Assembly: GCF_014904815.1 (NCBI RefSeq)
Contig: NZ_JACZFR010000023.1
Coordinates: 1-64,000, forward strand
Direction of reading: 5' to 3'
DNA length: 64,000 nucleotides
From: Microbulbifer taiwanensis
GTDB taxonomy: Bacteria; Pseudomonadota; Gammaproteobacteria; Pseudomonadales; Cellvibrionaceae
Of this stretch, positions 3,333 to 41,522 are shown piece by piece. Numbering within the stretch: position 1 is the first letter of the stretch; every line of letters starts with the position of its first letter. The position numbers and the translations under genes are program-made. Under the pieces are notes generated by a model that saw nothing but the letters and a program-made list of their open reading frames with translations, made no database searches and was not told where the DNA came from.

Positions 3333-5885
3333 TCAGGCCGGCTCGGCGATTTTGACGATTTCCTCGTTCCGCGCCGGACGCGGCTGGCCGCGCTCCTCGA
3401 CGAAAACGATCTTCTCGTCCGGCTCATCCGTGTTGACGAACTGGCGGAAGCGCTTGACCATTTCCGGGTCGTTGATCGCCGTCTTCCACTCGCACTGGTA
3501 GGTGCCGACCACATTGGCCATCTGCGCCTCCAGCTCGTCACAGATGCCCAGCTTGTCGTCGACGATGACCTCGCGCAGGTAGTCGAGACCACCCTCCAGG
3601 TTTTCCAGCCACACCGAGGTGCGCTGCAGCTTGTCCGCGGTGCGCACGTAGAACATCAGGAAGCGGTCGATAGTTTTGACCAGCGTCTCGTCGTCGATAT
3701 CGGTGGCGAATAGATCCGCGTGGCGTGGGCGCATGCCACCGTTGCCGCACACAAACAGGTTCCAACCCTTCTCGGTGGCAATCACGCCCACGTCCTTGCT
3801 CTGCGCCTCGGCGCACTCGCGGGTGCAGCCGGACACCGCCATTTTTATCTTGTGCGGCGAGCGCAGTCCCTTGTAGCGGTTCTCGATATCCAGTGCCATC
3901 TTGACGCTGTCCTGTACACCGAAGCGGCACCAGGTGCTGCCGACACAGGACTTCACCGTGCGCAGGGACTTGCCATAGGCGTGACCCGTCTCGAAGCCGG
4001 CATCGATCAGCTCACCCCATATCAGGGGCAGCTGCTCCAGCCGTGCACCGAATAGATCCACCCGCTGGCCGCCGGTGATCTTGGTGTAGAGGTTATATTT
4101 CTTCGCCACCTGGCCGAGTACGATCAGCTTGTCCGGCGATATCTCACCGCCGGGTACCCGCGGCACTACCGAATAGGTGCCGTTTTTCTGCATATTGGCC
4201 ATAAAGGTGTCGTTGGTATCCTGCAACCCTACGTGCGGCTTCTTGAGGATATGCTCGTTCCACAGGGAGGCGAAAATCGAGGCCGCTGTCGGCTTGCAGA
4301 TCTCACAGCCGCGGCCGCTGCCGTGCTTCTGTAGCAGCGCATCGAATGTTTTTATCTCCTCCACCTGCACTATGTGAAACAGCTCCTGGCGGGTGAAAGG
4401 GAAGTGAGTGCAGAGATGGTTGTTTACCTCCACACCCAGGGCCGCCAGCTCCTCGTCGACCACATTTTTCAGTAGTGCCGCGCAGCCGCCACAGCCGGTG
4501 GAGGCCTTGGTCGCGTCTTTTACATCGGCGAGGGAACAGCAGCCGCCGGCCACGGCATCGACGATCTGCCCCTTGCTGACGTTGTGGCAGGAACAGATGG
4601 TCGCGGTGGCGGGCAGGGCGCCGGCGCCCAGGGCCGGCGCGGCGCCATCGGCGGCGGGCAGAATCAACTGTTCCGGGTGTTCCGGCAGGTCGATGTCGTT
4701 CAGGTGGTATTGCAGCAGCTGATCGTAATCGTCCGTATCGCCCACCAGCACGGCACCCAGCAATTTCTTCCCTTCTGCATCGGTGATCATGCGCTTGTAG
4801 ACGCCGCTCTGCTCGTCGACAAAGGTGATGGCCGCGGCGCCCTCTGCGCGACCGTGGGCATCACCGATCGATCCCACCTGCACGCCGAGCAGTTTCAGCT
4901 TGGTACTCATATCGGCGCCGGTGAAAACTTCACTCGTCTCGCCGCACAGCTGCGCCAGCGCGGTGCGCGCCATGGTGTAGCCGGGGGCCACCAGGCCGTA
5001 GACAAAATTGTTGTAGAGGGCACACTCGCCGATAGCGAAGATATACTCGTCGGAGGTGCGACAGGACTCGTCGACGGCGATACCACCGCGCTCGCCCAAT
5101 TGCAGTCCGGCGGATTTGGCCAGCTTGTCTTCCGGGCGGATACCGGCGGAGAAGACGATCAGGTCGGTCAACAATTCACGCTCACCTTTACTCTCTCCTT
5201 GAAAGCGCATGCGCAGGCGGCCGTCCACCTCCTCGATGAGTTCGGTGGCGGTGCTGGTGTGCACGGTAACGCCCAGGTCCTCGATCTTGTTTTTCAGCAG
5301 CTCGGAACCGCCGCCGTCCAGCTGTACCGACATCAGGCCCGGGGCGAATTCCACCACATGGGCCTCCAGCCCCAGCTCCTTCAGCGCGTTGGCCGCTTCC
5401 AGGCCCAGCAGGCCGCCACCCACGACGACGCCCACAGTGCCGCCTTCACTGGCCGCGCGGATCGCATCCAGGTCTTCGATGGTGCGGTAGACGAAACATT
5501 TTTCGTGTTCGTGGCCGGGAATCGGCGGCACGAAGGGGTAGGAGCCGGTGGCGAGCACCAGGCGGTCGTAGTTCTTGACAGTGCCGCTGGCGGAGGTGAC
5601 GGTTTTCTTGTCCCGGTCGATCTCCACCGCTGTGTCGTTCAGCAACAGCTCGAAGCCCCAGTCCCGGTACTGCTCGACCTTGCCCATAGCTAGGTCGTCA
5701 ATGGTGCGGCCGGCGAAATACTCGGACAGGTGCACGCGGTCATAGGCGGGTCTGGGTTCGGCGCAGAAAACGGTCACGTCGAACAGTTCTTTTTCCGGCC
5801 GTGCGGCCAGCTGCTCGAGGAAGTGGTGGCCCACCATGCCGTTGCCGATAACGATGAGTTTTTGCTTAACCCTCGGTTCAATCAT
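3333..5885 (-). CDS. nirB: nitrite reductase (NADH) large subunit
   Basis: Six-electron reduction of nitrite to ammonium with NADH, using FAD, [2Fe-2S], siroheme and [4Fe-4S]. The N-terminus has the FAD Rossmann motif VIGNGMVGHHF. The NAD-binding GGGLLGLEAA lies near residue 150. The BFD [2Fe-2S] domain (CSCHNVSKGQ...STGCGGC) is central. The siroheme/4Fe-4S ligands appear as CTRECAE...CGNGG. I prefer the ATG at 5885, giving 850 residues, because AGGAA lies about 6 bases upstream. The in-frame ATG at 5900 has no clear ribosome site. The gene follows the kinase gene after a 375-base gap that may hold its own promoter. Confidence 0.95.
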   Translation of the reverse strand: MIEPRVKQKLIVIGNGMVGHHFLEQLAARPEKELFDVTVFCAEPRPAYDRVHLSEYFAGRTIDDLAMGKVEQYRDWGFELLLNDTAVEIDRDKKTVTSASGTVKNYDRLVLATGSYPFVPPIPGHEHEKCFVYRTIEDLDAIRAASEGGTVGVVVGGGLLGLEAANALKELGLEAHVVEFAPGLMSVQLDGGGSELLKNKIEDLGVTVHTSTATELIEEVDGRLRMRFQGESKGERELLTDLIVFSAGIRPEDKLAKSAGLQLGERGGIAVDESCRTSDEYIFAIGECALYNNFVYGLVAPGYTMARTALAQLCGETSEVFTGADMSTKLKLLGVQVGSIGDAHGRAEGAAAITFVDEQSGVYKRMITDAEGKKLLGAVLVGDTDDYDQLLQYHLNDIDLPEHPEQLILPAADGAAPALGAGALPATATICSCHNVSKGQIVDAVAGGCCSLADVKDATKASTGCGGCAALLKNVVDEELAALGVEVNNHLCTHFPFTRQELFHIVQVEEIKTFDALLQKHGSGRGCEICKPTAASIFASLWNEHILKKPHVGLQDTNDTFMANMQKNGTYSVVPRVPGGEISPDKLIVLGQVAKKYNLYTKITGGQRVDLFGARLEQLPLIWGELIDAGFETGHAYGKSLRTVKSCVGSTWCRFGVQDSVKMALDIENRYKGLRSPHKIKMAVSGCTRECAEAQSKDVGVIATEKGWNLFVCGNGGMRPRHADLFATDIDDETLVKTIDRFLMFYVRTADKLQRTSVWLENLEGGLDYLREVIVDDKLGICDELEAQMANVVGTYQCEWKTAINDPEMVKRFRQFVNTDEPDEKIVFVEERGQPRPARNEEIVKIAEPA

Positions 5886-6275
5886 CTGAGTTCCTGCCAT
5901 TTTTTCTGAATTTTTCGGCAGGGGAGGGGAGCGCGGTGGAGTGGCACGGGCGCCGCCTCTTCTCTGCCGAAGAGTCCGGGCGCCGTTGCCTCGTTAGGGG
6001 GATAAATTGTGTTGGTAGTTATTGTTATTCAAGGATTGTGCCAATACGAAATCCGTGTTTATTGCGGAATTTTGGCGGTCGATACTGACTCGGTTGCAAT
6101 AAATTGGTGCGTCGGCGATTCGGCTGCCCCTCGATGGTGCCCGCCATTTCGCCCCGTAGAAGCGGCCCATGGCCGCGATCGGCATCTGGTGTTGCCCGTG
6201 AGTCTGATCGCGGCCATTAATTTAGTGTCAACGGGCCCTGGGAGATATTTGCGTAACGGAATTTGCGTAACGGAG
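5886..6275. other. intergenic region upstream of nirB with hairpins and repeats
   Basis: No gene seen. On the minus strand, just before nirB, there is a strong hairpin with arms GGCGCC...CTCTTC and GAAGAG...GGCGCC and a 6-base loop GGCAGA (about 5950-5990). A copy of the GCGGCCCATGGCCGCGATC palindrome family lies near 6163-6181, with a partial GATCGCGGCCAT second arm near 6208. I found no U-tract terminator and no sigma54 consensus here. Confidence 0.5.
6247..6274. repeat. perfect tandem 14-bp repeat after the kinase gene
   Basis: ATTTGCGTAACGGA occurs twice head to tail (6247-6260 and 6261-6274), directly after the stop codon of the PP2C/kinase gene. Origin and function unknown; it could be a slippage product or a binding site. 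Confidence 0.9.
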
Positions 6276-7970
6276 TTACAGAAGGTGGAGGAGATGCGAC
6301 AGCAGCAACAGCAGCGCAACCAGCTGCCAGAACAACAGCGGGTTGCGCTCCAGCAGCGGTTTTTCCCGCTCGCGGGTGAACTGCGGGTTCGGTGTCTGCA
6401 GGTCGTGCACGAATTCCGATAGTGCCGGGTAGCGGTTGCGCGGATCCGGCGCGCAGGCCCGGCGCAGGGCGCCATCTATCCACTCGGGAATATCCTCGCG
6501 GTGTTGCCGCGCACTGATGTACTGCATACCGGCATAGCTTTTCAGCTGGTAGTGGCGGAAGCCCGCACGCTCGCGGTAGGGGTAGCGACCGGTGAGCAGC
6601 TCGTAGGTGATGACGCCGAGTGAGAAGATGTCCGAGCGGTGGCTGGGCGCGTCGTCGAAGAAGTACTCCGGCGCGGCGTAGTTCTTGCTGCCTGGCGGGG
6701 CCTCTTCACCTGGATAGCCGCCCAGCTGCAGCTGTTCGCGCAGGCCGCTGCCATCGGCGCCGCCCAGGTCGATCAGTTTCAGGCGGCCGTCTTTCGCCAC
6801 CATGATGTTTTCCGGCTTCAGGTCGCCGTGCACTATCTCCATCCGTTGCAGCCGGCGCAGGGCGCTGACCAGCTGGCTGATCAGTTCCCGCACCTGCTCC
6901 ACCCCCGGGGCGGGATTCAATTGCATCCACTGGCGCAGGTTCTGGCCGTCGATATATTCCAGCACATGGTAGAGAAACTGCCGCCTGGCCCTGGGGGGAA
7001 ATATTTTGACGATACCCGGGTGATCCAGGCGGCGGCCGGTCCACTCCTCGGCGACGAAGCGCTCGATATAGGCGGGGTCGTCGGCGAAATTGATCGATGG
7101 CGTCTTGATCGCGCGCAGCGCGTCGCTGTCGATATCCCGCGCCAGGTACAGCTGGCTGCGGGGGCTGGCGTGCAGCTCCTGCAGAATCAGGTAGTCATCG
7201 ACTTTATCGCCCGGTCTCAGGTCCGGCGGGAAAGGCAGCTGGCGGTTGCGGTCCAGCAGTTCGTTGCCGCTCGGCCGCACGCGGTGGATGCGGCACACGG
7301 CCGCGCTCAGGTTGTCGCCGGAGCCGCCGGCCAGGGCTGCGTCGACCAGCGCCTGGGCGGCGGCCTCGCCGCTTTCCTGCAGTATTTCGGCGACGGTTTC
7401 CGACGGGAGAAAATCGTGCACGCCGTCGCTGCTGAGCAGGTAGATATCGCCGGCCCGCAGTTCCTCGCGGCGATAGTCCACATCCACATGGGCGTCCATG
7501 CCCAGGGCGCGACTGAGGAAGGTGCGGCCGGGGCCGAGGGCGCGGCTGTGATCGCGGGTCAGGCATTCCAGCTTTCCGCCGCGCAGGCGGTAGATGCGCG
7601 AGTCGCCGATATGGATCAGGTGAGCGCTGGCGCCCTTGAAAACAACGGCGGAAAAGGTGGTGAGCCATCCTTGGGCGATTTCGTCGCCGGCGCCCTGGCG
7701 ATAGAGCCAGCTGTTCAGCGAGTGCAACACCCGCGCGGCGGCCTGCTTTACCGGCCAGGTCTCCGGGGTGCTGTAGTAGTCGGACAGGAAACCGCTGATG
7801 GCCGCGCGCGCGGCCTCGCCGCCGGCTTCGGCGCTGGCGACGCCGTCGGCCAGCGCGGCCAGGGCGCCGTGGGGGCGCAGTTCGGTCGCGGCCGGGGTGC
7901 AGGCGGCACAGGCGTCGTCATTGTATTGGCGGCGGCCGGCGCTGCAGGCACTGGAGAACTCCAGGGTCAT
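6276..7970 (-). CDS. PP2C phosphatase / Ser-Thr kinase fusion with C-terminal membrane anchor
   Basis: A 564-residue bifunctional signalling protein. The N-terminal 230 residues form a PP2C phosphatase with the metal-binding motifs ADGVAS, IGDSRIY, SSDGVHD and GDNLS. Residues about 250-520 form a Hanks-type kinase: AIK lysine near 286, HGDLKPEN catalytic loop near 380, DLGGAD in place of DFG, and an APE motif. A hydrophobic segment (LLFWQLVALLLLLSHLLHLL) anchors the C-terminus. I chose the ATG at 7970 because GAGAGG lies about 6 bases upstream; the longer frame would overlap narK. It lies between narK and nirB in the nas operon, so nitrate uptake or nitrite reduction are plausible targets. 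Related fusions are known near narK in other proteobacteria, but their role is poorly defined. Confidence 0.88.
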   Translation of the reverse strand: MTLEFSSACSAGRRQYNDDACAACTPAATELRPHGALAALADGVASAEAGGEAARAAISGFLSDYYSTPETWPVKQAAARVLHSLNSWLYRQGAGDEIAQGWLTTFSAVVFKGASAHLIHIGDSRIYRLRGGKLECLTRDHSRALGPGRTFLSRALGMDAHVDVDYRREELRAGDIYLLSSDGVHDFLPSETVAEILQESGEAAAQALVDAALAGGSGDNLSAAVCRIHRVRPSGNELLDRNRQLPFPPDLRPGDKVDDYLILQELHASPRSQLYLARDIDSDALRAIKTPSINFADDPAYIERFVAEEWTGRRLDHPGIVKIFPPRARRQFLYHVLEYIDGQNLRQWMQLNPAPGVEQVRELISQLVSALRRLQRMEIVHGDLKPENIMVAKDGRLKLIDLGGADGSGLREQLQLGGYPGEEAPPGSKNYAAPEYFFDDAPSHRSDIFSLGVITYELLTGRYPYRERAGFRHYQLKSYAGMQYISARQHREDIPEWIDGALRRACAPDPRNRYPALSEFVHDLQTPNPQFTREREKPLLERNPLLFWQLVALLLLLSHLLHLL

Positions 7971-8025
7971 TGTTTCCTCTCCCCCGCGAACGGGAGAGGG
8001 GAGTTTTTCTTCCCGAGTCCCGTTT

Positions 8026-9489
8026 TTAAGCAACATCGATCAGTGTCACGCTGCCATCCGGCGCTACCTCTGCCATATGTCCGCGCGGTTCTTCCAATAG
8101 CAGGGTGGCGGCGAAACCGAGCAAAGCGGTGGCGGCGATGACCAGGAAGAAGACCTGGTAGGACACCAGGCTCAGTACGGTGAGATAGAAGAGGCCGCCC
8201 ACATTGCCGTAGGCACCCACCATGCCGGCGATCTGCCCGGTGAGGCTGCGCTTGATCAGGGGCACCATGGCGAACACCGCGCCGGTGCCGGCGTGCACGA
8301 ACAGGGCGCAGAGCATGATGGCGCATACCGCCAGGTAGAGGGGCCAGGAGGCGTCGATGGTGCTAAGGCAAAAATAACCCAGGACCAGCCCCAGGGTTAC
8401 CACGAGCAGGGTGGGTTTGCGCCCCCAGCGGTCGCTGATCAGGCCGCCGATGGGGCGCATGGCCAGGGTAACCACGGCGAAGGTGCCGGCGAGCAGGCCG
8501 GCTTCCACCGGATCCAGGTCAAAGGTTTCGGAGAAGAACAGCGGCAGCATGGATACCACCGCCAGCTCGGAGCCGAAGGCGATGAAATACAGCAGGTCGA
8601 GCACCGCCACCTGCTTGAATTTATAGCGGTGAATCGGCGCCGGCGGATTGCTGAATACCTCGCGATTGATGCTGAAGGTCTTCATGGCGTCGAGCGCGTA
8701 GAGCAGGGCCAGTGCGCAGTAGATCACCGCGGCCCAGAATCCGGTAATCATGCCGACGCCGCTGGACAGTTTCCAGGTCAGCAGTGCCAGGGCCGCGTAC
8801 ATGGGAATTTTCATCAACAGCAGCAGGACGAAGTCGCCGGGGCTGGTGACTGCCATGGCACCGCTCTTTTTCGGCTTGAAGTAGGTGGAGCCTTTGGGGG
8901 TGTCGGTAACCGAGGCGTAGTAGATAAAGCTGTAAATGAGTGCGATGGCACCGGTCAGGCCCACGGCCCAGCGCCAGCCATCGTCGCCGCCGAACAGCAA
9001 CGCCAAGGTGGGCAGGGTAATGGCTGCGGCGGCGGAGCCGAAGTTGCCGAAGCCGCCGTAGATACCTTCGGCGAGACCCAGCTGGCGCGCGGGGAACCAT
9101 TCGGACACCATGCGGATACCGATCACGAAGCCGGCACCGATAAAACCGAGCAGGAAACGGCCCAGGGCCAGTTGCACGAAGCTGTCGGCGAGGGCGAAGA
9201 TAAAGCAGGGCACGCTGCCCGCCGCCAGCAGCAGCGAGTAGGTCAGGCGCGGGCCGTATTTGTCGGTGAGCATGCCGATCACGATGCGCGCGGGAATGGT
9301 CAGGGCCACGTTCAGGATCAGCAGCGTCTTCACCTGGTCGGGGGTGAGCGACAGGCTTTCGGATATTGCCATCAGTAGCGGTGCGTGATTGAACCAGGCC
9401 ACGAAGGTAATGAAGAAAGCCAGCCAGGTGAGGTGAAGTATTCTGGTGTTCCCGCGGAAGGAAAACAGGTTCAGGGTATCGCTGGACAT
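8026..9489 (-). CDS. narK: MFS nitrate/nitrite transporter
   Basis: Inner-membrane nitrate importer or nitrate/nitrite antiporter of the NarK/NasA MFS family, 487 residues with about 12 hydrophobic segments. The first helix ([19 protein letters not shown]) and the segment [22 protein letters not shown] match the family. I chose the ATG at 9489 because AAGGA sits 7 bases upstream. Earlier in-frame starts fall within the leader terminator (9528-9568). It is the first gene after the attenuator-like leader and precedes the kinase gene by 55 bases. Confidence 0.92.
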
Positions 9490-9527: not shown

Positions 9528-9578
9528 AAAAAAAGCCCACGGGTGCGGTTTTTCCGCTGCCGGTGGACTTCGTTGTCC
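9528..9578 (-). promoter_or_regulatory. candidate NasT (ANTAR) antitermination leader of narK
   Basis: Read on the minus strand, GGAC-AACGAA-GTCC (9578-9565) forms a hairpin with a 6-base loop having A at position 1 and G at position 4, as in the ANTAR target RNA motif. Its 3' arm is also the 5' arm of a terminator: GUCCAC pairs with GUGGGC, with an inner GCGG/CCGC stem (9568-9535), then seven U (9534-9528). The two folds exclude each other, as expected for antitermination. The usual upstream partner hairpin with the same loop rule was not identified; a long palindromic hairpin sits there instead (9594-9627). Confidence 0.7.
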
Positions 9579-9593
9579 GTGTATCGGTTTGTC

Positions 9594-9627
9594 GTAGGAT
9601 GGGCATGCTGCGCTTTGCCCATCCTAC
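9594..9627. repeat. 12-bp inverted repeat at the 5' end of the narK leader
   Basis: GTAGGATGGGCA (9594-9605) and TGCCCATCCTAC (9616-9627) are perfect complements around a 10-base loop. The motif is a widespread intergenic palindrome type. Here it begins at the predicted transcription start of narK, so the mRNA would begin with this hairpin. Confidence 0.85.
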
Positions 9628-9637
9628 AGATTACGTA

Positions 9638-9653
9638 TTCAATTTTTGTGCCA
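9638..9653 (-). promoter_or_regulatory. candidate sigma54 promoter of narK
   Basis: On the minus strand TGGCAC-AAAAA-TTGAA matches the -24/-12 layout (TGGCAC-N5-TTGCW) with exact GG-to-G spacing; only the C of the -12 GC is replaced. It lies immediately after the nasS stop, with the start expected near 9628. No perfect NtrC palindrome was seen upstream inside nasS. Confidence 0.5.
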
Positions 9654-10721
9654 TCATTTTTTCTTGTGCAGGAAGTCGACTGTCTGCTGGTACAGCTCCG
9701 GGCGGAAGGCGTTTTCCTCCCCGTCGGTGACCGGGGAGAAGTCGCGGCAGAGTTCCAACAGTTGCGTGGCTTTTTTCTTCGTCGGGCGACCAGAATCGTT
9801 TTCGAGTTGGGCGAACAGGTGCCAGCCGGGATTGGCAGCCGTTTCGGTATTGCCGTGGCGGAAGGGCTGCTCGCCCAGCGAAGGGGCCAGTATTTCCTCC
9901 GGTAAATCCAGGTACTGCCCACGAGCCAGTAGCGCTGTCGCATCGCGGCGCCGGTCGCGCTCCGACAGCCAGTCGCAGGCCTGCAGCAGCGCCGCGCGCA
10001 ACGCCAGGTGGGCGGCGGGGTGGGCACGGTGCCAGCTCTCGGTCACCGCCAGTACCTTTTCCGGCATCGCCGGCAGCAGGCTGTTGCAGGGGGTGGCGAT
10101 GGTGCCGATACCCCTGTGTGCAGCCAGTGTGTTCCAGGGTTCACCCACGCAATAGCCGTCTATATCGTCGCGCTGCAGGCTGTCGACCATCTGCTCCGGC
10201 GGCAGTACCACTAATTGCAGGTCCCGGTTCGGATCTATGCCCGCCGCGCGCAGCCAGTGACGCAGTTGCAGTGTGTGGCTGGAAAAGGGATAGACGGTGG
10301 CGAACCTGAGCAGTGCCTCGCCGCCGGGACGGTTTTGGATATAGGTTGCCAGGGCACGGCCGACCCCGGCGCCGTCGCAGTCCGCTGCCGGCAGTATCAA
10401 TTTGCGATACAGGGAGGCGGAGAGCGTAATTGCATTGCCGTTACAACTCAGTATCAGGCCACTCAGCAGTTGCTCGCCGCACTGGGGCAGCGCCTGCGCC
10501 AGGGTCAGCGGCATGGGCGCGAGCATGGCGGCGGCGTCGGCGGCACCGCCGATCAGCTTGTCGCGCAGCGTGGCCCAGGAAGTCTCGCGCTGCAGTTGCA
10601 CTTTGAGGCCGTAGCGATCGAAGAAACCCATTTCCTGCGCAATGATCAGCGGTGCGCTATCGGTCAGACGCAGGTATAGCAGTTTGATATGGCTTTTTTC
10701 CGGGCGCAGCTGTATCGGCAT
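9654..10721 (-). CDS. nasS: nitrate/nitrite-sensing periplasmic-binding-like protein NasS
   Basis: A 355-residue protein of the NrtA/CmpA substrate-binding fold. It has no signal peptide or lipobox at its N-terminus (MPIQLRPEKSHIKLLYLRLTD), which fits the cytoplasmic NasS sensors rather than transporter binding proteins. In the known NasS-NasT pair, NasS holds NasT inactive until nitrate or nitrite binds. It lies 72 bases downstream of nasT in the same direction, which supports the assignment. There are no ABC permease or ATPase genes nearby. Confidence 0.9.
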   Translation of the reverse strand: MPIQLRPEKSHIKLLYLRLTDSAPLIIAQEMGFFDRYGLKVQLQRETSWATLRDKLIGGAADAAAMLAPMPLTLAQALPQCGEQLLSGLILSCNGNAITLSASLYRKLILPAADCDGAGVGRALATYIQNRPGGEALLRFATVYPFSSHTLQLRHWLRAAGIDPNRDLQLVVLPPEQMVDSLQRDDIDGYCVGEPWNTLAAHRGIGTIATPCNSLLPAMPEKVLAVTESWHRAHPAAHLALRAALLQACDWLSERDRRRDATALLARGQYLDLPEEILAPSLGEQPFRHGNTETAANPGWHLFAQLENDSGRPTKKKATQLLELCRDFSPVTDGEENAFRPELYQQTVDFLHKKK

Positions 10722-10793: not shown

Positions 10794-11378
10794 TCAATTT
10801 CCGGGCTGAAAATAGTGAATTATCTGTTCCGCCACTGCGCGCATGGTGGCATTGCTGCTCATGGCCAGGTTGCGCAGTGTCTTGTGCGCCGCGTCTTCGC
10901 TGAGGTTTTTCTTCGCCATCAGCAAGCCCTTGGCTCTCTCAATGGCTTTGCGCTCATCCAGCTGCTTCTGGGTGCGCTCGAGGGATTGGCGCAGCTGCTG
11001 GTAGCTGCGGAACTGCGCCATGGCGATTTCTATTGCAGGCTGGACCCGCTCGGCGGATATCCCCTCGGCCATATAGGCGCTCACCCCCGACTCCACGGCG
11101 CGGGCGATAAACTCCGCATTGCCGCGCGCGGAAAATACGGCCACCGGCGTGGGGGCCTGGCGGTTGATAATCGCCAGGCTCTCGAGAATATCGCGGTCCG
11201 GCGACTCGATATCGATCAGTACGATATCCGGCTTGTGCCTCTCCACCTGGTACAGCAGCCCCTCGGCACTGCTGAGCTGCGCCAGCAGGCGATAACCGGC
11301 CGCGCGCAGCTGCTCGCACACCATCTGTGCGCGCTCCGCCTGGTCATCGACCAGCATGATGCCGAGGGACTTGTTCAT
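10794..11378 (-). CDS. nasT: ANTAR-domain antiterminator NasT
   Basis: A 194-residue response-regulator-like protein. Residues 1-120 are a receiver fold (IMLVDDQ, IVLIDIES, AVFSAR), and residues about 130-192 form an ANTAR RNA-binding domain with ERAKGLLMAKKNLSEDAAH. NasT proteins bind paired hexaloop hairpins in nas leader RNA and prevent termination. I chose the ATG at 11378 (MNKSLGIMLVDDQ) because it begins at the receiver domain. The ribosome site is weak. Upstream lie a terminator-like hairpin and a sigma54-type promoter. Confidence 0.93.
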   Translation of the reverse strand: MNKSLGIMLVDDQAERAQMVCEQLRAAGYRLLAQLSSAEGLLYQVERHKPDIVLIDIESPDRDILESLAIINRQAPTPVAVFSARGNAEFIARAVESGVSAYMAEGISAERVQPAIEIAMAQFRSYQQLRQSLERTQKQLDERKAIERAKGLLMAKKNLSEDAAHKTLRNLAMSSNATMRAVAEQIIHYFQPGN

Positions 11379-11412: not shown

Positions 11413-11448
11413 AAAAAGCCCGGCCCACCAGTCAGTGCAGCCGGGCTT
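11413..11448 (-). terminator. attenuator-like hairpin in the nasT leader
   Basis: Read on the minus strand, AAGCCCGGC (11448-11440) pairs with GCCGGGCTT (11424-11416), followed by further U residues to 11413. It lies between the predicted nasT promoter and the nasT start. Just upstream GGC-AAAGAA-GCC could form a 6-base-loop hairpin, with loop positions A1 and G4, that overlaps the 5' arm. That stem is only 3 base pairs. Confidence 0.6.
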
Positions 11449-11470
11449 CTTTGCCATTGCCCAATGAACA

Positions 11471-11486
11471 ATCAAGACTTGTGCCA
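11471..11486 (-). promoter_or_regulatory. candidate sigma54 promoter of nasT
   Basis: On the minus strand TGGCAC-AAGTC-TTGAT fits the -24/-12 spacing of sigma54 promoters, with one change in the -12 GC. The start is expected near 11461, giving an 83-base leader before nasT that contains the hairpin at 11413-11448. Confidence 0.6.
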
Positions 11487-40309: not shown

Positions 40310-40378
40310 GTCATCGAAGAGTCACTGGCAGTGGAAACTGACAACTAACGGAAAACTGACCACCGAATCATCACAACA

Positions 40379-40497
40379 GCTACCGAGCCACTGGGCCTAA
40401 GTTCGCCAATAGCGCGAGTAGGGCCTCTTGGCCGCAGGTTCCGGAGTCAGACAGACTGAGGTGCCTGCCAGGGTCGGCGGAGAAATCTTCCGGCCTC
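40379..40497 (+). ncRNA. molybdenum cofactor (Moco) riboswitch
   Basis: The leader before moaA folds as a multi-helix RNA. CCGAG pairs with CTTGG, CGC with GCG around CAATA, and GCAGG with CCTGC enclosing an AGTC/GACT stem. The last hairpin, GGTCGG-C-GGA-GAAA-TCT-T-CCGGCC (about 40471-40495), has a GAAA tetraloop. Segments such as CGAGCCACTGGGCCTAAG and GCAGGTTCCGGAGTC recall, from memory, the Moco RNA motif. A riboswitch here would lower moa expression when cofactor is plentiful. The 3' end is close to the moaA ribosome site, so translational control is possible. Confidence 0.78.
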
Positions 40498-40514
40498 CCG
40501 AATTTGGAAAGGTA

Positions 40515-41522
40515 ATGCGAAACAACGAAATGCATGAAGCTGGCCAGGGCGTCCTGGAAGACGGCCACGGCCGCCGCTTCTACTATCTGCGCCTGTCGGT
40601 CACCGATGCCTGCAACTTCCGCTGCGACTACTGCCTGCCGGAAGGTTACCGGGCGCGGGCCGGCGAAGCGGCCCCCCTCAGCGTCGCCGAGGCGGCGACC
40701 GCAATGCGCGCCTTTGCCCGATTGGGCACCCGCAAGGTGCGCCTCAGCGGCGGCGAGCCATCCCTGCGTGCCGACCTGCCGGACATCATCGCTGCGGCCC
40801 GCAACACCCCCGGTATCCGTCGCGTGGCGGTCACCAGCAACGGCTACAAACTGCCGAAGGTCATCGACGAGTGGCGCCGCAGCGGCCTAGACCAGCTCAA
40901 TATCAGTATCGACAGCCTGGACGCGGCGGAGTTTGCGCGCATCACCGGCCACGACTGCCTGCCGCGCATCCGCACCGGCATAGACCGCGCCCTGGAGCTG
41001 GGGGTACAGACCAAGGTCAACGCGGTACTGCTCAGCGACGGCGCCACCGAGCGCCTGCAGCAGTTCCTCGACTGGCTGCGGGATACTCCGGTCACCCTGC
41101 GCTTTATCGAGCTGATGCAGACAGGCGACAACCGCGACTATTTCGCCAGCAATCACCTGCGCGGCGACACCATAGAGCGGCAGCTGATAGAGAGCGGCTG
41201 GCAACTGCTGCCGCGGGCCATAGACGCCGGTCCGGCGCGGGAGTATGCGCACCCGGATTACCGCGGCAGCATCGGCCTGATCACCCCCTACAGCAGGGAT
41301 TTCTGCCAGAGCTGCAACCGCCTGCGGGTGTCGGCCCAGGGCAAGCTGCACCTGTGCCTCTTCGCCGATGCGGGTCTCGATCTGCGCGAGGAAATCCGCC
41401 GCGGCGATGTGGCTGCACTGGCGGAGAGAATTCAGACCCTGGTCGGCGGCAAGGCCGCCAGCCACTACCTGCAGCAAGGACAGACGGGTGCCACCCGCAA
41501 CCTGTCCGTGATCGGCGGATAA
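40515..41522 (+). CDS. moaA: GTP 3',8-cyclase MoaA
   Basis: Radical-SAM enzyme for the first step of molybdopterin synthesis (GTP to 3',8-cH2GTP). The 335-residue protein has the SAM cluster CNFRCDYC (about residues 29-36), the second 4Fe-4S cluster CQSCNRLR...LHLC (about 263-280), and a C-terminal GG. I chose the ATG at 40515, which has AAAGG closely upstream; an ATG five codons later is also possible. It lies directly after the Moco riboswitch. Confidence 0.95.
   Translation: MRNNEMHEAGQGVLEDGHGRRFYYLRLSVTDACNFRCDYCLPEGYRARAGEAAPLSVAEAATAMRAFARLGTRKVRLSGGEPSLRADLPDIIAAARNTPGIRRVAVTSNGYKLPKVIDEWRRSGLDQLNISIDSLDAAEFARITGHDCLPRIRTGIDRALELGVQTKVNAVLLSDGATERLQQFLDWLRDTPVTLRFIELMQTGDNRDYFASNHLRGDTIERQLIESGWQLLPRAIDAGPAREYAHPDYRGSIGLITPYSRDFCQSCNRLRVSAQGKLHLCLFADAGLDLREEIRRGDVAALAERIQTLVGGKAASHYLQQGQTGATRNLSVIGG

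Follow-up and report, generated by a model that had tools for sequence, protein, structure and literature searches.

The leader of narK in Microbulbifer taiwanensis is probably a single-hexaloop NasT antitermination switch, a lineage-wide variant of the dual-hexaloop switch, a reading to which we give a probability of about 0.75 on the basis of sequence comparison. ANTAR domains form a family of RNA-binding antiterminator domains, with NasT, NasR, AmiR and EutV among its members. The leader lies in a window of 64,000 nucleotides, the whole stretch of DNA analysed here, taken from a genome of 4.82 Mb in 115 contigs (G000). The genes of the locus follow each other on the minus strand in the order nasT, nasS, narK, a fused PP2C phosphatase/Ser-Thr kinase gene (window 6276-8036), nirB, nirD and a gene for a molybdopterin oxidoreductase that is presumably the nitrate reductase (Table 1); NasS is the presumed nitrate sensor. 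The start of narK was placed at the ATG at 9489, matching relatives, and a longer open reading frame starting at 9606 was not adopted.

Table 1. Genes, promoters and leader elements of the nas locus in window coordinates.
Feature	Position	Strand	Remark
sigma54-type promoter of nirB	6029..6043	-	pattern match
Single hexaloop GGC-AACGGC-GCC of nirB leader	5979..5990	-	predicted +28
nirB leader hairpin CUCUUC-GGCAGA-GAAGAG, then GGCGCCCGUGCC	5943..5974	-	GGCGCCCGUGCC can pair with hexaloop element instead
CUGCCG pairing with nirB Shine-Dalgarno region (GGCAGG)	5893..5921	-	pairs in 41/41 leaders, G-U counted
narK, nitrate/nitrite MFS transporter	8026..9489	-	TIGR00886, 321.6 bits, cut-off 311.7; start as in relatives
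U7 tract of narK terminator	9528..9534	-	sequence
Intrinsic terminator hairpin of narK leader	9535..9568	-	-18.1 kcal/mol; GUCC of P2 opens its 5' arm
Single ANTAR-type hexaloop hairpin P2, GGAC-AACGAA-GUCC	9565..9578	-	predicted +50 to +63
REP-like dispersed palindrome, 12-bp hairpin at 5' terminus, from predicted +1	9594..9627	-	34-nt perfect palindrome; in 1/38 genus leaders
sigma54-type -24/-12 promoter of narK, TGGCAC-AAAAA-TTGA	9639..9653	-	sequence pattern; box upstream of hexaloop in 36/38 genus leaders
nasS, NMT1-like protein	9654..10721	-	PF13379; orthologue in 40/48 genus genomes
nasT, receiver-ANTAR protein	10794..11378	-	ANTAR PF03861; sole ANTAR protein found in genome
Intrinsic terminator of nasT leader, U5	11413..11450	-	5' arm overlaps hexaloop hairpin
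Single hexaloop GGC-AAAGAA-GCC of nasT leader	11444..11455	-	predicted +6
sigma54-type promoter of nasT	11472..11486	-	pattern match

The original prediction placed the parts of a NasT antitermination leader between nasS and narK, namely a -24/-12 element, a GGAC-AACGAA-GTCC hairpin with A1 and G4 in its loop (P2) and a terminator with a U7 tract that has GUCC in common with it, and all of them are present. Parts of this type, next to the gene of NasT, point to such a leader. The promoter box starts immediately past the nasS stop codon and agrees with the sigma54 consensus TGGCAY-N5-TTGM at -24/-12. The corresponding pattern, TGGCAYNNNNNTTGA, has 31 matches in the genome compared to 2 for the reversed pattern, and three of the 31 precede nirB, narK and nasT. 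For a sigma54 promoter at this box, the predicted +1 would be the first base of a palindrome, at about 9627. Like other ANTAR hairpins, P2 combines a stem of at least 3 bp with a six-base loop carrying A1 and G4, and its 3' arm is common to the intrinsic terminator, as in ANTAR antiterminators. Each folded alone, the terminator reaches -18.1 kcal/mol versus -4.0 kcal/mol for P2. A 113-nt stretch of the leader is predicted to fold more stably than any of 200 shuffles (z -5.47, to which the palindrome contributes much), and the predicted fold keeps the palindrome separate from both P2 and the terminator.

The same hexaloop recurs across the genus. A NasS orthologue (at least 62% identity) was present in 40 of 48 Microbulbifer genomes, and 38 of these 40 loci have narK downstream of nasS, once at 1.7 kb from it (L034); the two loci in which narK was not found in the stretch examined (L015, L026) are outside the set of 38 leaders. 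Every one of the 38 carries GG[AG]C-A..G..-GTCC followed by a T-run, no leader failing a pattern that demanded A1 and G4. Within the loop, positions 2 (A in 23, T in 6, G in 6, C in 3), 3 (C in 34, T in 4) and 5 (A in 36, G in 2) vary, position 6 is A in all 38, and A1 and G4 are fixed by the pattern itself. As originally predicted, the usual first hexaloop hairpin (P1) is missing: the second hairpin that ANTAR dual-hexaloop leaders hold a short linker upstream was not seen before P2 of narK. A strict P1 within 20 nt of P2 occurred in 0 of 38 leaders, dinucleotide shuffles predicting 0.42; over the whole distance from +1 to P2 it occurred in two (1.74 expected), which is chance level, and a bulge-tolerant energy scan gave two leaders with P1 at E<=-6 (1.45 expected). 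The stretch searched measured 23-141 nt, or a fixed 60 nt for L010 and L024, in which the pattern missed the box. Nine leaders have, by eye, a similar stretch before P2 (L018, L021, L022, L025, L028, L029, L035, L039, L040).

Upstream of nasT lies a second leader (window 11413-11486, minus strand), detected in 17 of the 40 loci. In all 17 the hexaloop starts at a predicted +3 to +6, with 2-5 nt preceding it, too few to accommodate P1 in transcripts from the nasT promoter; three of the 17 (L023, L027, L034) have a weak A/G hexaloop farther upstream, which counts against a P1-free reading. Ten loop sequences occur among the 17 hexaloops, A1 and G4 being set by the pattern. The 23 loci with no leader detected include stretches too short to show it; in L003, L004 and L006 the site can be seen but departs from the pattern, and the nine loci listed above have a sigma54-like box before nasT, with no leader found. 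The position of this leader suggests autoregulation by NasT. Some relatives have a nasT-type leader 1-2 kb upstream of nasS, in front of a different gene.

A third leader precedes nirB (window 5883-6043, minus strand). It was found in 41 of 43 nirB loci of the genus with an identical hexaloop in all 41, and no P1-like hexaloop hairpin was found in the 5' stretch of any of them. Five Ts within 100 nt past the hexaloop were found in only one of the 41. Around a conserved hairpin, the hexaloop element has an alternative pairing with a downstream GCCCGUGCC arm; RNAalifold, run on 32 of the 41 leaders, recovers the helices of the hexaloop element and of the Shine-Dalgarno region, with changes on both sides in 3 of 20 pairs and a small covariation term of -0.4 kcal/mol. 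Against the hairpin loop, CUGCCG aligns free of mismatch and G-U in 36 of 41 leaders and with G-U in one more, the other 4 being mismatched. CUGCCG follows a C-rich, G-poor stretch (on average 53% C and 13% G). The alternative pairing, the Shine-Dalgarno pairing and the C-rich stretch together suggest that the nirB leader controls ribosome access or Rho. An RNA model of the leader run on 293 genomes matched five genomes of the genus strongly and two outside Microbulbifer at the borderline, its filters losing weak matches; within the scope of this search, the RNA is restricted to Microbulbifer. Among seven genus genomes scanned, the nirB leader accompanies an ANTAR protein in G000, G005, G010, G020 and G029, and the scans detected neither of the two in G039 and G041. 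In G005, the ANTAR protein is of the NIT-ANTAR (NasR) type (L275:1384-2739), with no NasS orthologue or NasT match found; it would explain the persistence of the nirB leader there.

The single hexaloops ahead of nasT and nirB are probably targets of NasT as well. Across the sequences compared, the predicted absence of P1 is a property of the lineage and not a loss in one species, because P1 is at chance in the 38 narK leaders and is likewise missing ahead of nasT and nirB.

The same scan does detect P1 in other genera, in which 60 leaders were picked by hand, since terminator-based classification was noisy, and 59 evaluated (L129 gave no hit). In this non-random sample, for which 110 nt before P2 were searched versus 23-141 nt in Microbulbifer, P1 was present at E<=-6 in 40 of 59 leaders (2.95 expected) and lacking even at E<=-3 in 14. 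The 59 include leaders of alphaproteobacteria and many gammaproteobacteria with textbook dual hexaloops, the two hairpins being mostly 1-18 nt apart. The P1-less leaders include all seven tested of the nearest NasS relatives (L044, L049 from Halioglobus, L122, L124, L126, L130 and L131); the other members of the 14 are L078, L094, L097, L113, L144, L160 and L161. L123, L125 and L129, judged P1-less by eye only, are single-hexaloop leaders of the Halieaceae type with weak or missing U-tracts.

It is unlikely, in our opinion, that Microbulbifer leaders keep a P1 of another loop type or in a distant helix that the scans do not recognise, so that a two-site mechanism persists. Five leaders elsewhere (L137, L140, L155, L061, L064) would fit such an arrangement, their canonical P1 hexaloop lying about 40-60 nt upstream of P2 with hairpins in between as if bridging the gap, and the stretch common to nine Microbulbifer leaders could be read likewise. 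However, A1/G4 hexaloops are at chance anywhere between +1 and P2 of the narK leaders, the few nucleotides before the detected nasT hexaloops offer no place for one, and the nirB 5' stretch is free of such a hairpin in 41 of 41 leaders.

The long 5' hairpin announced by the original prediction is a perfect 34-nt palindrome, GTAGGATGGGCA...TGCCCATCCTAC, running from the predicted +1 (9627-9594). It has one match in the window allowing up to 3 mismatches (shuffles 0) and is dispersed, as had been predicted: the genome contains 14 exact copies of its core (reversed control 0) and 171 places that match with up to 3 mismatches (reversed pattern 11), many of them a sister family. The 14 exact copies start with GTAG, which the pattern sets, and several form inverted pairs. 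REP and REPIN elements are moved by RAYT-type Y1 transposases, and four Y1_Tnp matches over cut-off were found in the genome. As a dispersed GTAG-headed palindrome, with paired copies and a candidate RAYT-type gene, the repeat agrees with the usual definition of a REP, and like REP/REPIN elements it is in general an imperfect palindrome; unlike them, the copy in the narK leader is a full palindrome located at a predicted transcription start. The loop of this REP was also considered as a hexaloop and rejected, no A..G hexaloop hairpin being present at E<=-3 in L001.

The original prediction went further and proposed that a repeat may have replaced P1, and this part is not supported. A canonical dual-hexaloop leader whose P1 was recently replaced or disrupted by a REP in this species alone would account for the repeat occupying the place that P1 has in other genera, where dual-hexaloop leaders are common. 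We nevertheless consider such an event very improbable: 37 of 38 genus leaders are without this REP, none of the 38 has a strict P1 within 20 nt, and P1 is equally lacking from the nasT and nirB leaders and from the seven leaders tested of nearest NasS relatives. A different palindrome occupies the same spacer in 3 of the 38 narK leaders, those of the related species L003, L004 and L006; its pattern occurs at 49, 57, 43 and 45 places in G000, G036, G024 and G015, respectively (reversed 0 or 1). The repeat of the window seems to have entered an unoccupied spacer at a later time, and the best reading is that the free 5' spacer of the narK leader tolerates REP elements.

That the narK terminator is a constitutive attenuator and the hexaloop a decaying relic would suit the loss of P1, the misfit of the nasT-leader hexaloop in at least three species and the weak U-tracts of some Halieaceae-type leaders, but is hardly credible given that all 38 narK leaders conform to the A1/G4 pattern even though positions 2, 3 and 5 are variable, and that the nirB hexaloop is identical in 41 leaders and not found in the two scanned genomes with no ANTAR match.

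For the single-hexaloop switch, we propose that sigma54 RNA polymerase would start at about 9627, as judged from the box. In the absence of nitrate, NasS would hold NasT, the strong terminator would outcompete the short P2 and transcription would stop at U7. In the presence of nitrate, freed NasT would bind the A1/G4 hexaloop as soon as GGACAACGAAGUCC emerges from the polymerase and would hold GUCC, so that the terminator could not close and narK would be made. P1 would have no part in the design of the Microbulbifer lineage; the 23-141 nt between +1 and P2 would be a spacer where REPs can sit, and the REP of the window would fold as an independent 5'-terminal hairpin. One point against this reading is that +1 is placed from the box, and a longer transcript could hold other hairpins.

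The locus encodes a candidate cognate ANTAR protein, NasT. No ANTAR protein besides NasT was found in the genome, and NasT combines Response_reg and ANTAR domains beside an adjoining nasS, as proteins of the NasT and AmiR/NasR type do. It aligns over most of its length with its best solved relatives, Rv1626 (1s8n) and EutV (6wsh). At the EutV contact positions, taken from PMC8934654, R142, K143, K149, R168 and M172 are kept in 40 of 40 Microbulbifer NasT, K147 is Arg and R175 is Asn in all 40, Tyr164 is replaced by His in all 40, and Arg177 by Thr in 39 and Ser in one. In EutV, Tyr164 is described as stacking on hexaloop G4 (Walshe et al., 2022; PMC8934654). Among 34 NasT encoded beside near-P1 leaders, Tyr164 is kept in 33 and position 177 is Lys or Arg in 30. 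In a quick tree of 85 rows (18 of the 40 Microbulbifer, columns 164 and 177 dropped), the NasT of the P1-less lineage form one clade of 34 rows (SH-aLRT 95). The 26 of these rows with a leader status are all P1-less, 8 having no assigned status, and the Halieaceae-type leaders within the clade likewise show one hexaloop. Tyr164 is changed to His or Phe in 33 of the 34 rows and Arg177 to Thr or Ser in all. These changes are one clade event and therefore an association, not a cause. A general coupling of positions 164 and 177 with the loss of P1 was rejected: the changes cluster in this clade, independent pairs gave no support, L134 has P1 yet His at 164, Tyr persists in several relatives lacking P1, and in G005, which retains the nirB leader, the NasR-type protein carries Tyr at the equivalent of 164.

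Extended to marine gammaproteobacteria (Microbulbifer, Halieaceae and neighbours), these data could mean that NasT is a true single-hexaloop antiterminator there, one dimer binding each hexaloop even at the extreme 5' end and fast enough to beat the terminator, with its RNA surface changed alongside, and that the same hexaloop is reused at nirB in a ribosome-access or Rho switch devoid of a U-tract; to this wider proposal we give even odds.

The closest known systems are the ANTAR dual-hexaloop antiterminators of Enterococcus faecalis (EutV-eutP) and Klebsiella oxytoca (NasR-nasF), which share with the window leader the A1/G4 hexaloop, the short stem, the 3' arm shared with the terminator and the ANTAR regulator. 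Ramesh et al. defined the dual hexaloop and reported that deletion of P1 in E. faecalis ablated EutV induction (Ramesh et al., 2012; PMC3369931). Walshe et al. redefined the binding site as one hexaloop, their crystal structure showing full binding to one, with P1 still required for antitermination; they ask why both hexaloops are needed and call for more work on single ones (Walshe et al., 2022; PMC8934654). The window leader is without P1, whereas both papers hold P1 necessary. NasR was reported to bind P2 alone more weakly, at about 12 uM (PMC7496416). The E. faecalis deletion and this weaker binding speak against the single-hexaloop reading.

Similarly, NasS-NasT leaders of Paracoccus denitrificans nasA and, by citation only, of Azotobacter vinelandii and Pseudomonas aeruginosa are described with nasTS beside nitrate assimilation genes, as here, and they too have the leader between nasS and structural genes and a receiver-ANTAR NasT. 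In Paracoccus, nitrate is reported to release NasT from NasS, and NasT to act on the nasA leader (PMC3795266). Two hairpins are described for that leader, with a severe effect of mutating HI and little effect of mutating HII with nitrate (PMC5424462). In contrast, the three leaders of the window locus have a single hexaloop each, and its NasT differs at contact residues. Single-hexaloop sites suggested by Walshe et al. for EutX and some Mycobacterium tuberculosis targets resemble the present ones in that one hexaloop is the minimal binding site, although they are proposed for situations that do not impose the time limit of a transcribing polymerase, whereas the window hexaloop overlaps a terminator (PMC8934654). 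In the open-access literature, we found no report of a single-hexaloop antitermination leader, 'single hexaloop' beside ANTAR only in PMC8934654, ANTAR and Microbulbifer together in no paper, and no occurrence of 'narK RNA', 'narK motif' or RF03032.

Published models need two hexaloops, the first of which recruits the protein, and a lineage dispensing with P1 in three leaders, one of which (nasT) has no room for it, offers a ready comparison; the recurrence of this one-hairpin design makes a standing question on the function of ANTAR switches testable. The search pattern for ANTAR targets is also widened, as two-hairpin models miss single-hexaloop leaders. The narK leader would further illustrate how a regulatory RNA can take in mobile repeats and stay functional.

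The original prediction had proposed a scan with a dual-hexaloop model and counted the lack of a match towards its refutation. In Rfam, RF03032 (narK RNA) is the sole related model. It scored the window leader at 14.0 bits (E 1.6, gathering 43.2), with no match in the window over the cut-off; for this model the refuting outcome thus occurred, but a two-hairpin model would miss a one-hairpin leader. RF03032 resembles the window leader in its -24/-12 box and a hairpin followed by CGAC-AAAGAC-GUCG; the first hairpin of the model and the REP align in the stem alone, with a larger loop. The model itself looks like an ANTAR dual-hexaloop leader with a sigma54 box, though named only narK RNA in Rfam. 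It matched 1 of 145 relatives, L041, which fits at 55.1 bits. Elsewhere in the window, a Molybdenum cofactor riboswitch lies at 40369-40526 on the plus strand (77.7 bits).
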